Position numbers and translations under genes: made by a program
Shown: positions 29,918-34,372 of the stretch, piece by piece
How positions within the stretch are numbered: position 1 is the stretch's first letter
How the letters are laid out: each line of letters opens with the position of its first letter
The notes under the pieces: model-generated
What the model saw: the letters and a program-made list of their open reading frames with translations, nothing else
Databases searched by the model: none
What the model was told of the DNA's origin: nothing
Source: Aurantibacillus circumpalustris
Lineage (GTDB): Bacteria > Bacteroidota > Bacteroidia > B-17B0 > Aurantibacillaceae
Direction: 5' to 3'
NCBI RefSeq assembly: GCF_029625215.1
Contig: NZ_CP121197.1
Coordinates: 1,488,001 to 1,552,000, forward strand
DNA length: 64,000 nucleotides

Positions 29918-31018
29918 ATGGCTTTGAAATGTGGAATTGTTGGTCTACCAAATGTTGGAAAATCGACTTTGTTTAATTGTTTAAGTAATGCTCAGGCTCA
30001 GGCCGCAAATTTTCCTTTTTGTACTATTGAACCAAATGTTGGTACTACAACTGTACCGGATGAACGTTTAAATAAACTGTCAGAGTTGGTTAAACCTCAA
30101 AATATAGTTCCAACAACTGTCGAGATTGTAGATATAGCCGGTCTAGTAAAGGGAGCAAGTAAAGGTGAGGGTTTAGGAAATAAATTTTTAGGAAACATCC
30201 GTGAATGTAATGCGATTTTACATGTGTTGCGCTGTTTCGATGATGATAATGTAGTGCATGTGGATGGTAAAGTAAATCCAGTAAGCGACAAAGAAATTAT
30301 TGACGCTGAATTGCAATTGAAAGATTTAGAAAGTGTTGATGGGAAGATGAAGAAGTATGAGAAACTTGCTAAGGTTGGTGCAGACAAGGATGCGGTAAGA
30401 ACATTTGCTGCGCTTACAAAAGTGAAAACAGCCTTGGAAAGTGGTAACTCTGCAAGAACAGCGGCATTGGAAGAAAATGAATTGCCCTATATTGCCGATT
30501 TACACTTACTCACTATTAAGCCGGTAATGTATGTGTGTAATGTGGACGAGGCTTCTGCAAAAACAGGTAACAAACATGTGGACGCAGTGAAAGAAGCAAT
30601 TAAGAATGAAGACGCGGAAATCTTAATTATTACCGCGCAAATGGAAAGTGAAATTGCTGCTCTCGAAACTTATGAAGAGAAACAAATGTTTCTTGGTGAA
30701 ATGGGATTGGATGAGCCAGGCGTAAATAAACTAATTAAGTCTGCTTACAAATTGTTAAAGTTAGATACTTACTTCACAGCTGGAGTAAAAGAAGTAAGGG
30801 CATGGACAATTACAAAAGGAATGAAAGCGCCGCAAGCTGCAGGTGTTATTCATACCGATTTTGAAAAAGGATTTATTAAAGCAGAAGTAATTGCATACAA
30901 CGATTTCGTAACACTTGGTTCTGAAGCCGCTTGTCGCGAAGTTGGTAAGTTGCGTATCGAAGGGAAAGAGTATGTTGTGAATGATGGGGATGTGATGCAT
31001 TTCCGATTTAATGTCTAA
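29918..31018 (+). CDS. ychF: Redox-regulated ATPase YchF
   Basis: The 366-residue Obg-family P-loop protein has Walker A GLPNVGKSTLFNCLS at residues 8-22, switch motifs and DIAGLVKGASKGEGLGNKFL near residue 72, and NVDEASAKTG in place of the usual NKxD guanine motif. That explains its ATP preference in this family. A helical insertion and a C-terminal TGS domain (RAWTITKGMKAPQAAGVIHTDFE...) complete it. YchF binds ribosomes and responds to oxidative stress in other bacteria. It is monocistronic by appearance, with a promoter box upstream and a palindromic repeat immediately downstream. Confidence 0.96.
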   Translation: MALKCGIVGLPNVGKSTLFNCLSNAQAQAANFPFCTIEPNVGTTTVPDERLNKLSELVKPQNIVPTTVEIVDIAGLVKGASKGEGLGNKFLGNIRECNAILHVLRCFDDDNVVHVDGKVNPVSDKEIIDAELQLKDLESVDGKMKKYEKLAKVGADKDAVRTFAALTKVKTALESGNSARTAALEENELPYIADLHLLTIKPVMYVCNVDEASAKTGNKHVDAVKEAIKNEDAEILIITAQMESEIAALETYEEKQMFLGEMGLDEPGVNKLIKSAYKLLKLDTYFTAGVKEVRAWTITKGMKAPQAAGVIHTDFEKGFIKAEVIAYNDFVTLGSEAACREVGKLRIEGKEYVVNDGDVMHFRFNV

Positions 31019-31023
31019 ATCAA

Positions 31024-31099
31024 ATGGAAAATGTAAGATGGCAGATGGAAAATGGATAAGCCGACATACATTTTCCCTTTTACATCTTACATTTTCCAT
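31024..31099. repeat. Long palindromic repeat after ychF
   Basis: ATGGAAAATGTAAGATG (31024-31040) is the exact reverse complement of 31083-31099. The 42-nt interior again contains ATGGAAAATG facing CATTTTCCC, so the structure is a nested palindrome. It starts 5 bp after the ychF stop. It lacks the GC core and T-run of a standard terminator but could still end transcription. Confidence 0.65.
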
Positions 31100-31155
31100 A
31101 AACGGTGATTATCGATTAAGGTAGAACTTTTAATTTTAGAGTAAAAAATAGAATT

Positions 31156-31938
31156 ATGAATAACCACGAAATTGATTACAAATTAGAAGGTGAAGAAATG
31201 CAATGTGTCGAGATTGAACTCGATCCGCAAGAAGCGGTGATTGCAGAACCTGGAAGTTTTATGATGATGACCGATGGCATTTCCATGCAAACATTATTTG
31301 GTGATGGAAACGAATCTGGTTTTATGAGTAAATTATTTTCTGCCGGAAAACGTTTGTTGACTGGCGAGAATTTATTCATGACTGTTTACACAAATAACTC
31401 AAATCAAAAACGTCAGGTTTCTTTTGCTGCTCCTTACGCAGGAAAAATCATTCCTATGGATTTATCAGGTTTGGGTGGAAAAATTATTTGTCAGAAAGAT
31501 AGTTTCTTATGTGCAGCCAAAGGTGTTTCTGTTGGAATAGAATTTTCTAAAAAATTGGGAACGGGTTTATTTGGTGGTGAAGGTTTTATCATGCAAAAAT
31601 TGGAAGGGGATGGAATGGCTTTTGTTCACAGTGGCGGTCACGTTGTTGAAAAAAATCTTCATGCTGGAGAAATATTAAAAGTGGATACAGGTTGTATTGT
31701 TGCTTTTACAAGCAATGTACATTACGATATTCAATTTATTGGTGGAGTAAAAAACACGTTGTTTGGTGGAGAAGGCATGTTTTATGCCACACTTCAAGGT
31801 CCGGGTATAGTTTGGATTCAGACACTTCCAATTAGCAGACTTGCAGGAAGAATTTTAGCGTACGGCACAGGTAGAAGAAAAGAAGAAGGAAGTATTCTCG
31901 GAGGATTAGGGAATATTTTAGATGGAGACGGTTTGTAA
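31156..31938 (+). CDS. TIGR00266/AIM24 family protein
   Basis: The 260-residue protein has the AIM24-like family pattern: MQCVEIELDPQEAVIAEPGSF at the start, glycine-rich beta strands, LFGGEGFIMQKLEGDG near residue 140 and a final GGEGMFYATLQGPGIVWIQTLP. The family forms a double beta-sandwich. Its bacterial function is unknown (the mitochondrial relative affects inner-membrane architecture). Its TAA stop (31936-31938) lies within the left inverted repeat of the next element, so the repeat abuts the gene end without damaging it. Confidence 0.9.
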   Translation: MNNHEIDYKLEGEEMQCVEIELDPQEAVIAEPGSFMMMTDGISMQTLFGDGNESGFMSKLFSAGKRLLTGENLFMTVYTNNSNQKRQVSFAAPYAGKIIPMDLSGLGGKIICQKDSFLCAAKGVSVGIEFSKKLGTGLFGGEGFIMQKLEGDGMAFVHSGGHVVEKNLHAGEILKVDTGCIVAFTSNVHYDIQFIGGVKNTLFGGEGMFYATLQGPGIVWIQTLPISRLAGRILAYGTGRRKEEGSILGGLGNILDGDGL

Positions 31939-31969
31939 TTACGGGTTGTGAGTTATTTATTTCGAGTTG
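31937..31969 (+). repeat. Left inverted repeat of the IVP element
   Basis: Reverse complement of 32477-32509 with four mismatches in 33 positions. It includes the last two bases of the upstream gene's stop codon. Confidence 0.8.
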
Positions 31970-32050
31970 GTTAAGGGAAAAAATTGTAGACTTTAATTGT
32001 TCTATAAAGATTATTAATTTTAAACTTGAAATAACAAACTCAAAATAAAT

Positions 32051-32455
32051 ATGGCAACAATTACAAAATTTGAAGATATTGAAATTTGGCAGTTGGCGAG
32101 AAAATTGAATAAGGAAATGTATCCTTTTTTGCAGTCCTTGATTGATACCAGGAATTACGAACTAAATAAACAAATGGAACGCGCTTCAGGCTCAATAATG
32201 GATAATGTTGCAGAAGGTTTTGAAAGGGATGGAACACGGGAATTTATTCAATTTCTAGCAATATCAAAAGGTTCGGCAGGAGAAATAAGATCTCAACTTT
32301 ATCGAGCTCTGGATAGAAATTTAATAACCGAGGATCAGTTTAATAAATTTCAAATCGATTGTAAATTAATCGGAGATAAAATTGGAAAATTTATGAATTA
32401 CCTAAATAATTCTAACATAAAGGGTAAAAAATTTACAACAACGACGCAAAAATAA
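32051..32455 (+). CDS. Four-helix-bundle protein (23S rRNA intervening-sequence type)
   Basis: The 134-residue helical protein belongs to the S23/IVP four-helix-bundle family: FEDIEIWQLARKLNKEMY at the N-terminus, the signature QMERASGSIMDNVAEGFERDG near residue 41, EFIQFLAISKGSAGEIRSQL in helix 3 and a long C-terminal helix. The family was first found encoded inside 23S rRNA intervening sequences; relatives include the accessory Avd protein of diversity-generating retroelements. Here it is neither in rRNA nor near a reverse transcriptase. It lies alone between inverted repeats in the junction upstream of parE. Nucleic-acid binding is plausible for this basic bundle but unproven. Confidence 0.9.
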   Translation: MATITKFEDIEIWQLARKLNKEMYPFLQSLIDTRNYELNKQMERASGSIMDNVAEGFERDGTREFIQFLAISKGSAGEIRSQLYRALDRNLITEDQFNKFQIDCKLIGDKIGKFMNYLNNSNIKGKKFTTTTQK

Positions 32456-32476
32456 AATAACTACAAGCGGGTTTAG

Positions 32477-32509
32477 CAACTCGAAATAAATAACTCGTAA
32501 CACGAAATT
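32477..32509 (-). repeat. Right inverted repeat of the IVP element
   Basis: Inverted copy of 31937-31969. It ends three bases before the parE start codon, so it occupies the parE 5' leader and could affect parE translation or transcription. Confidence 0.8.
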
Positions 32510-32512
32510 TAT

Positions 32513-34372
32513 ATGGCAAAATCGAATTATACAGAAGATAATATACGCTCCTTAGACTGGAAGGAACATATCCGCACGCGTCCTGGTATGTATATTGGTA
32601 AGTTAGGTGATGGAAGTGCGTTCGACGATGGTATCTATGTTCTCTTAAAAGAGGTAATGGATAATTCCATTGACGAATTTATGATGGGCGAAGGAAATAG
32701 AATTGACATTGTTGTAAAAGAGGGTGTTGTTTCTATTCGTGACTTTGGTCGTGGTATTCCGTTGGGAAAAGTGGTTGAGGTTGTATCTAAAATGAACACA
32801 GGTGGTAAATACGATAGTGAAGCATTTAAAAAATCGATCGGTTTAAATGGTGTTGGAACAAAAGCCGTGAATGCACTTTCAATAAATTTTAAAGTAACTG
32901 CTTACCGCGATGGTCAAGCCAAAACCGCGGAGTTCAGCAAAGGCGAATTAGTTAAGGAACATAAATTGACAGCAGCGCCAGGTGAGAAGAATGGAACATA
33001 CGTAGAGTTTCGTCCGGATGATAGCATTTTTAAGAAATACCATTTTGTTCATGAATACATTGATAGAATGGTTTGGAATTATGCATTTCTAAATACTGGT
33101 TTAACGCTAACACTAAACGGACAAGCGTATAAATCAGATAATGGTTTAAAAGATTTATTAGAGAAAAATATTACTGGTGAAACCTTATATCCAATCATTC
33201 ATTTAAAAGGTGAAGATATTGAGTTGGCAATGACTCACAGTAATGAGCATTTCAGTGAAGAGTATTACAGTTATGTAAACGGTCAGTATACAACACAAGG
33301 TGGAACACATCTTGCCGCTTTCAGGGAAGCAGTTGTAAAAACGGTTCGCGAATTTTATAAAAAAGAATTTGAACATTCTGATGTACGCAAATCTATAGTA
33401 GCGGCTATTGCAATAAAAGTTCAGGAACCCGTTTTTGAATCGCAAACCAAAACAAAATTAGGATCGAGTGAAATCGCACCGGGTGGTCAAAGTATTCGCG
33501 GCTTTATAGGAGATTTTATAAAAGAACAATTAGATAATTATTTACACAAAAATCCTGAAATCGCTAAAGCGATTGAAGCTAAAATATTAGCGAATGAACG
33601 TGAACGTAAAGAATTATCGGGCATTCAAAAATTAGCACGTGAACGCGCGAAAAAATCTTCACTGCACAATAAAAAATTACGTGACTGTAGAACACACTTA
33701 GATGATATAAAAGACGTTCGCCGTTTAGAAACAACTTTGTTTATTTGTGAGGGTGATTCTGCCAGTGGTTCTATTACTAAAACCCGTGATGTAAACACAC
33801 AAGCCGTATTTAGTTTAAAAGGTAAACCGCTGAATTGTTTTGGTCTTGGTAAAAAAGTAGTGTATGAAAACGAAGAATTTAATTTATTACAATCTGCTTT
33901 AAACATTGAAGATGGATTAGATGACCTTCGTTACAACAATGTAGTTATTGCTACAGATGCCGATGTGGATGGCATGCATATTCGTTTATTGTTGCTTACT
34001 TTTTTTCTTCAGTTTTTTCCTGATCTTGTAAAAAGCAATCATGTAAAAATTTTGCAAACACCTTTATTTCGTGTGCGTAACAAAAAAGAAACGGCGTATT
34101 GTTATAGTGACGAAGAGAGAAAGGCTGCCATTGCTAAACTTGGCCCGAAGCCTGAAATCACACGATTTAAGGGACTCGGAGAAATTTCACCAGACGAGTT
34201 TAAACATTTTATTGGAAAAGACATTCGTTTGGAACCTGTTCTGCTTGATCAAAAGGCAAGTATCAATGAATTACTAAATTATTACATGGGTAAAAATACA
34301 CCAAGTAGGCAAGACTTTATTATTGATAATTTACGCGTAGAAAAGGATACTGAAAAAGATTTGGTGAGTTAA
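32513..34372 (+). CDS. parE: DNA topoisomerase IV subunit B
   Basis: The 619-residue GHKL ATPase subunit of a type IIA topoisomerase has an early [20 protein letters not shown] segment, VMDNSIDEF (ATP/Mg Asn), [13 protein letters not shown] and the [14 protein letters not shown] lid. The TOPRIM domain carries [11 protein letters not shown] and [12 protein letters not shown] with the metal acidic residues. With ParC (39149) it makes topoisomerase IV for chromosome decatenation. The [16 protein letters not shown] segment and the pairing with a nearby A subunit favour ParE over GyrB. Its upstream leader is replaced by the right repeat of the IVP element. Confidence 0.94.

Follow-up and report, generated by a model that had tools for sequence, protein, structure and literature searches.

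The described systems closest to the locus presented here are the 23S rRNA IVSs. According to the available part of PMC4990558, the Coxiella IVS, which RNase III cuts in vitro, has a 28-bp terminal stem and tandem heptamers before its S23p open reading frame (ORF); in Xanthomonas, S23p forms a homopentamer ring. The CPR rRNA insertions also carry IVP ORFs (accessible sections of PMC11270868). The corresponding protein family, PF05635, is called functionally uncharacterised in the parts available of PMC10053308, PMC4990558 and PMC11270868, the first of which suggests homology between IVP and Avd of the diversity-generating retroelements. Heptameric repeats are also described by themselves: the tandem TAACTGA repeats of Beggiatoaceae, Cyanobacteria and Bacteroidetes consist of 7-nt units, many of them shortly before start codons, and are mostly direct repeats of one word (PMC4679880, in the portion at hand). 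The terms S23, four helix and intervening do not occur in the text of PMC4679880, and no description of IVP cassettes with heptad arms between operon genes was found in the open-licence literature searched.

The window, i.e. the whole 64-kb stretch of Aurantibacillus circumpalustris DNA analysed, contains an IVP gene between two inverted arms at the junction of a TIGR00266 gene and a gene of the GyrB/ParE type. The features of the locus are as follows.

31015..31110, forward strand: IVP-less heptad hairpin with GGAAAAT words, at the ychF/TIGR00266 junction
31156..31938, forward strand: upstream host gene TIGR00266 / AIM24 (ORF list and family scans)
31937..31974, forward strand: left arm, of the 7-nt-word type, beginning within the TIGR00266 stop codon
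32032..32051, forward strand: third copy of the arm word, immediately 5' of the IVP start and 90% complementary to the left arm
32051..32455, forward strand: IVP / four helix bundle gene, 134 aa (PF05635 / TIGR02436)
32472..32509, forward strand: right arm, ending 3 nt ahead of the parE ATG and closing the predicted RNA fold
32513..34372, forward strand: downstream host gene, a GyrB/ParE-type topoisomerase subunit, with all NCBIfam matches below their cut-offs; parE is the name used in the preliminary description

The gene upstream of TIGR00266 is one that we take to be ychF. Rfam matches in the region (plant and animal RNAs, most of them on the hairpin 31015-31110) were far below the gathering scores and were taken as chance.

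The structural claims of the preliminary description hold. The 33-bp arms, 31937-31969 and 32477-32509, pair in inverted orientation at 29 of 33 positions, and their ungapped extension gives the 38-nt arms listed above, which are 84% complementary. The alignment score of 46 is reached by none of 5000 shuffles (maximum 30). When a pair of 250-nt flanks, spaced by 402 nt as they are here, was slid along the 64-kb window over 1262 places, this score was found only at two overlapping places, both at this locus, and the next best was 31. The stop codon and the parE start lie with respect to the arms as had been stated, and a further copy of the arm word does precede the IVP ATG; it could pair with the left arm as an alternative hairpin. 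The arms enclose one gene only: on either strand, the sole ORF of at least 60 aa between them is the IVP gene, the product of which matches PF05635 with an E-value of 1.2e-30 and has its best match among solved structures in 2gsc (XCC0516), with five chains. Treated as RNA, the 586-nt stretch has a predicted fold closed by the two arms (z -3.0), and one of 100 shuffles folds as well.

This layout resembles the Coxiella IVS, where one IVP ORF lies inside a terminal inverted repeat of similar length, with tandem heptamers by the ORF and a similar total size, 428 nt (PMC4990558, available part). Complementary ends enclosing an IVP ORF are thus common to both. However, the window element lies between TIGR00266 and a GyrB/ParE-type gene and not in 23S rRNA; elements of its type are found between protein genes, mostly in operons, and carry hypervariable words that follow the type of the IVP. 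It also differs from insertion sequences, as the ORFs of at least 60 aa between the arms include no transposase, recombinase or reverse transcriptase. REP/RAYT and REPIN systems consist, as here, of intergenic hairpins, some of them solo and some beside one protein gene. Unlike in REP/RAYT, the window protein is by family an all-helix IVP that matches PF05635 only, not a Y1 tyrosine transposase, and the words differ between elements. Avd belongs to a related fold family: of four related plasmid IVP proteins scanned, those of loci L331, L344 and L346 match Pfam bAvd below its cut-off (E 4e-8 to 2e-5), whereas that of L323 and the window protein do not match it. The TAACTGA repeats share the 7-nt unit; in contrast to their direct repetition, the words of the present elements form inverted pairs around an IVP gene.

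The surroundings of IVP genes were compared between genomes. PF05635 'four helix bundle' genes are present in 82 of the 100 genomes searched, the own genome included. The first set comprises 97 distinct IVP ORFs (reduced from 128 HMM rows), mostly the best matches to the window protein among those listed, and therefore leans to relatives of this protein. Facing inverted arms, defined by a score of at least 26 between the 250-nt flanks on the two sides of the IVP gene, are found at 60 of the 97 loci, against 3.8% of mismatched pairs, and 57 loci outscore all 100 of their own shuffles. Such arms were also found at 16 of 269 control genes, a rate that is raised by the presence among the controls of two missed weak IVP genes of the own genome (L009 and L011). 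An independent set of named genomes gave the same result: arms at 61 of 77 loci, against 18.9% of mismatched pairs, a background that is high because related loci share words. From this second set, L172 and L173 were left out as copies of G008 and G005, and one of the remaining 78 loci was dropped for its short flanks. The own genome has seven PF05635 genes, of which five are at or above the threshold (46, 40, 35, 30 and 29) and two below it (20 and 17). The locus in the window is one copy of a widespread element. The preliminary description had named multiple copies of the arms around other IVP genes as support for an element; the other IVP genes of this genome instead carry different words.

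The arms are arrays of 7-nt words. In the first set, the identity at lags 7, 14 and 21 is 0.56, 0.55 and 0.51, against 0.34 in shuffles; in the second it is 0.65, 0.65 and 0.60, the comparison with shuffles being for the first set. The base composition is strongly skewed, with four times as much G as C in the left arm and over three times as much C as G in the right arm. The alternative of a local palindrome of no consequence next to an ordinary gene could account for the loci that have no clear arm pair at the threshold (37 of 97 in the first set and 16 of 77 in the second), loci that also weigh against the element, but it is already contradicted by the association of arms with IVP genes, by the 7-nt period and by the replication in the second set, and we regard it as hardly credible. 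In the explanation that we favour, and hold as a whole to be probable, the elements are about 0.4-0.6 kb long and consist of a single IVP gene flanked by two arms that face each other and are made of hypervariable 7-nt words. G.U pairs in the arms do not significantly exceed A.C mismatches (113 versus 95, p 0.24); selection on a sense RNA stem is thus not supported, which counts against an RNA role.

The position of the arms was determined for the 94 of 175 elements that have clear arms, co-directional neighbours and gaps of at most 200 nt. The median distance between the upstream stop codon and the left arm that follows it is 2 nt, and that between the right arm and the start codon behind it is 8 nt; the arms have a median length of 28.5 nt. 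The insertion exactly at a gene boundary, as it had been described for the window, is therefore common among the elements with clear arms. Part of this tidiness is explained by the arm itself, which can supply the stop codon: at two plasmid sites (F and G) the upstream gene ends at a stop codon inside the element, with no evident duplication.

According to the ORF calls, 87 of the 97 IVP genes of the first set lie between two co-directional genes (33 of 43 when counted by distinct site), against 94 of 182 control triplets. The proportion is 65 of 69 in the second set, for loci with both neighbours known. The 175 elements occupy 89 sites, and the 166 with both neighbours known occupy 80 distinct sites. 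Several of these recur: sufB/sufC (22 elements), sufC/sufD (11), TIGR00266/parE and sdhA/sdhB (nine each), iscA/sufB, sufE/SUF-associated gene and fadB/J-like/thiolase (eight each), and a few more besides. One representative of each suf-, sdh- and fad-type neighbour was checked by NCBIfam, several of them being below the equivalog cut-off or partial sequences. Since many sites are common to relatives, much of the spread in Bacteroidota may be vertical. In the Riemerella iron-response table of PMC5609570 (Table 3), RAYM_06457 (HesB/IscA family), RAYM_06462 (four helix bundle) and RAYM_06467 (SufB) stand together; taken as neighbours from their tag numbers, they fit co-transcription.

Three single records may be mentioned here. 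In a Flavobacterium copy (L232), an early stop seems to truncate the IVP ORF. One Riemerella record that is labelled 'plasmid' (L332, about 102 kb) and carries lepA, an iron-sulfur cluster assembly accessory protein and an IVP may be misassembled chromosome. In both Flavobacterium columnare genomes of Table 5 of PMC5524665 (available in part), a four helix bundle gene between guanylate kinase and nicotinate-nucleotide adenylyltransferase is given under phage elements and may be an IVP cassette.

The recurrence of the same junctions across families (sufB/sufC, sufC/sufD, sdhA/sdhB) is what would be expected if the IVP gene were passed on vertically as part of its operon, together with a regulatory hairpin, and tuned the neighbouring subunits (suf, sdh, fad), and if its apparent gain were mostly loss. 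The number of distinct sites speaks against this, as does the IVP protein tree, on which 12 recurrent sites require 20 site changes where the least possible is 11, few columns supporting this tree. In the same tree, the copies of the TIGR00266/parE and ychF/TIGR00266 junctions fall, along with three others, in one clade of 16 rows, so that neighbouring junctions seem to exchange elements.

The junction of the window can be followed in relatives. TIGR00266 and parE stand side by side in 36 loci; a tblastn search with the window protein finds an IVP between them in nine and none in 27, so that empty sites, which the preliminary description had named as support for an element, do exist. The nearest relative by the TIGR00266 and parE proteins (G030) lacks the element, and no footprint of it could be aligned at the empty G030 junction. 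Four relatives have an IVP at the ychF/TIGR00266 junction, which holds only a hairpin in the window. Where the two host junctions are empty of IVP, the 7-nt period is still present (lag 7 identity 0.416 in 24 loci and 0.438 in 19), as the vertical explanation would have it, and the next junction is without it (0.295, 30 loci). The empty sites also bear on the ATGGCAA with which both the IVP gene and parE of the window begin, and which had been read as part of a portable pre-start segment. In 20 of the 26 empty-site loci inspected, parE begins with ATGGCAA, and 10 of 32 aligned IVP proteins begin with MATI; the shared start therefore hardly seems to be carried along as a segment. A direct repeat between the pre-IVP and downstream segments is a minority feature, with a score of at least 24 in 9 of 97 loci and in 2.8% of mismatched pairs.

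The order of genes at these junctions also varies in another way. In G001 and G037, ychF adjoins parE and TIGR00266 is absent (loci among L110, L318 and L319). In G056 an IVP lies between ychF and parE and TIGR00266 is missing, as expected from recombination between two flanking IVPs.

A search of the own genome for the window word (20 nt, at most three mismatches) found elsewhere only one IVP-less hairpin, which lies near genome position 1,706,073 with convergent genes on its two sides, and a control pattern matched equally often. The word is also present in an IVP-less hairpin of G010 (L315). Together with the hairpin at 31015-31110, these may be remnants or non-autonomous copies of the element. 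Seeding of heptads throughout the genome by the IVP was considered and rejected: in a sample of up to 40 kb from each of 28 genomes plus the window, the intergenic regions of IVP-having genomes are without a 7-nt period (224 co-directional regions, lag 7 identity 0.299) and do not differ from those of IVP-free genomes (p 0.57; same genus, 0.71). A cruder run count in 29 genomes likewise gave no correlation with IVP (same genus, p 0.37).

Clear traces of movement were found on cyanobacterial plasmids, where the scanned proteins are PF05635. Two sites, A and B, lie in one operon of Nostoc-type plasmids. Site A holds the element in pC052_D, pNsp_a and pNPM1; in pNsp_c and likewise in four other plasmids it is empty, with a 3-nt junction in pNsp_c, and p057_A has a different insert there. 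At site B, pNsp_c holds another element, and the other eight plasmids have at most 4 nt from stop to start, or an overlap. The elements of pC052_D and pNsp_a share 99.05% identity (four differences in 420), but their flanking genes only 92.5%, 91.7% and 90.6%. Three records have an element at site E, six others of about 98% identity are empty there, and a seventh plasmid has a decayed copy. The copies retrieved for site E have GTAAT at both borders, a clear 5-bp duplication that includes the stop codon, within flanks that are 98-99% identical; TTCTA at site A is a likely second one. The IVP proteins of L343, L344 and L345 are 81%, 79% and 78% identical to that of L331; together with L331 these loci occupy three unrelated sites, and they have the same word directly ahead of the IVP ATG. 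Sequence comparison thus supports well the mobility of the element class. A vertically inherited operon gene would hardly leave such a duplication, or clean empty sites at which the host genes overlap or are 2-4 nt apart, and we consider this alternative improbable. A search for target duplications as shared 4-6-mers in 133 Bacteroidota loci gave no signal, which counts against simple transposition in Bacteroidota.

Of the ten plasmid loci tested, seven have arms at or above the threshold. The exceptions are L327, L328 and L331, the last of which has heptads that extend into the 3' part of the IVP gene. The rule of orientation is weaker on plasmids: among the 17 loci with both neighbours annotated, 12 are co-directional, some of them at the same site, and three are opposite to both neighbours. 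One PF05635 gene (L342, 1106-1471, E 7.6e-22) is flanked by heptad arms and oriented antisense to its operon; in two relatives the corresponding junction measures 2 nt. IVP cassettes are also found in CRISPR operons of cyanobacterial plasmids (L324, L346 and L347), twice between cas6 and cas4 and once between cas10 and cmr3, the latter junction being empty in Picosynechococcus PCC 7002.

The word carried by the arms follows the type of the IVP protein. Within one site, left and right arms fit with a score of at least 26 in 51% of 63 same-genome pairs, against 17% of 462 different-genome pairs; the better fit within genomes indicates that both sides change together. Between different sites (110 of the 175 elements), word similarity tracks the similarity of the IVP proteins, with rho 0.50 and none of 500 permutations as high. 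The correlation holds in each collection alone when both site and family differ (rho 0.30, 0 of 500; rho 0.21, 2 of 500) and also inside single genomes (rho 0.50, 26 pairs, 8 of 2000). For unlike IVPs, word sharing is no higher within one genome (15 pairs) than between genomes (0.37 versus 0.41), and the host genome thus does not set the word. The protein would read the word, or arms and gene would move together as one unit, or both would apply; that the IVP recognises the arms is what we infer from this pattern. The preliminary description had proposed a non-autonomous mobile unit or, alternatively, a structured-RNA/protein pair. Both gain support, the former from the empty sites and plasmid insertion polymorphisms and the latter from the co-variation of word and IVP type. 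A recent movement of the window copy is not supported.

The same data bear on the possibility that MITE-like repeats are moved by an unrelated transposase, with the IVP gene as their passenger and the heptad arms as the ends used by that transposase. A 182-nt IVP-less hairpin repeat with the same heptad words interrupts the IVP gene of pNPM1 (L335, within 768-1370). Matches to this repeat lie at 98 places in 43 plasmid records, 28 of which hold at least 80% of it. Solo hairpins sharing the arms of IVP elements are found elsewhere on the same or related plasmids, and 5-bp duplications, as at site E, are common among transposase-driven elements. A passenger gene, however, would not explain why the arms follow the IVP type, and the arm words vary widely, to our knowledge unlike the ends of known transposases. 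A further point against it is the similar layout in an rRNA IVS (PMC4990558, in the part available). We regard this explanation as unlikely.

Overall, we believe with reasonable confidence that the locus represents a small mobile two-armed IVP element, a relative of the 23S rRNA IVS with similar workings, but living between operon genes, in mRNA junctions. Such an element would land at or near the junction of two co-directional genes, its left arm supplying or abutting the stop codon of the upstream gene, as the comparison of plasmids shows, and would be read through with the host operon. By analogy with the IVS, the arms could close into a stem in the transcript that RNase III can cut, which would release the IVP RNA and leave both host cistrons translatable. 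The heptad arms, as RNA or single-stranded DNA, would be recognised by the IVP ring protein encoded between them, which might protect or move the element; it is the co-variation of protein type and word that points to these roles. The arms would change in 7-nt steps, and IVP-less arms would persist or spread as solo hairpins.

A broader reading can be put forward, tentatively and with some doubt: IVP-heptad cassettes may constitute a class of autonomous transposable elements of Bacteroidota and Cyanobacteria, the sole protein of which is a non-catalytic helical-bundle ring that reads arms phased by 7 nt, each subunit perhaps contacting one heptad. The ring would use a host polymerase or nuclease to drive insertion beside stop codons, the solo heptad hairpins would be trans-mobilised MITEs, and the rRNA IVSs would be copies that landed in rRNA.

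Membership of the IVP genes in a mobile hairpin element, if correct, explains why they occur between suf, sdh, fad and CRISPR genes. The puzzle of the rRNA IVS and that of the bacterial heptamer repeats would then be joined in one system, and the recognition of arms by the IVP would be directly testable with natural matched and mismatched pairs. The finding suggests a larger unit of which this bacterial protein family, very common but uncharacterised, is a part.
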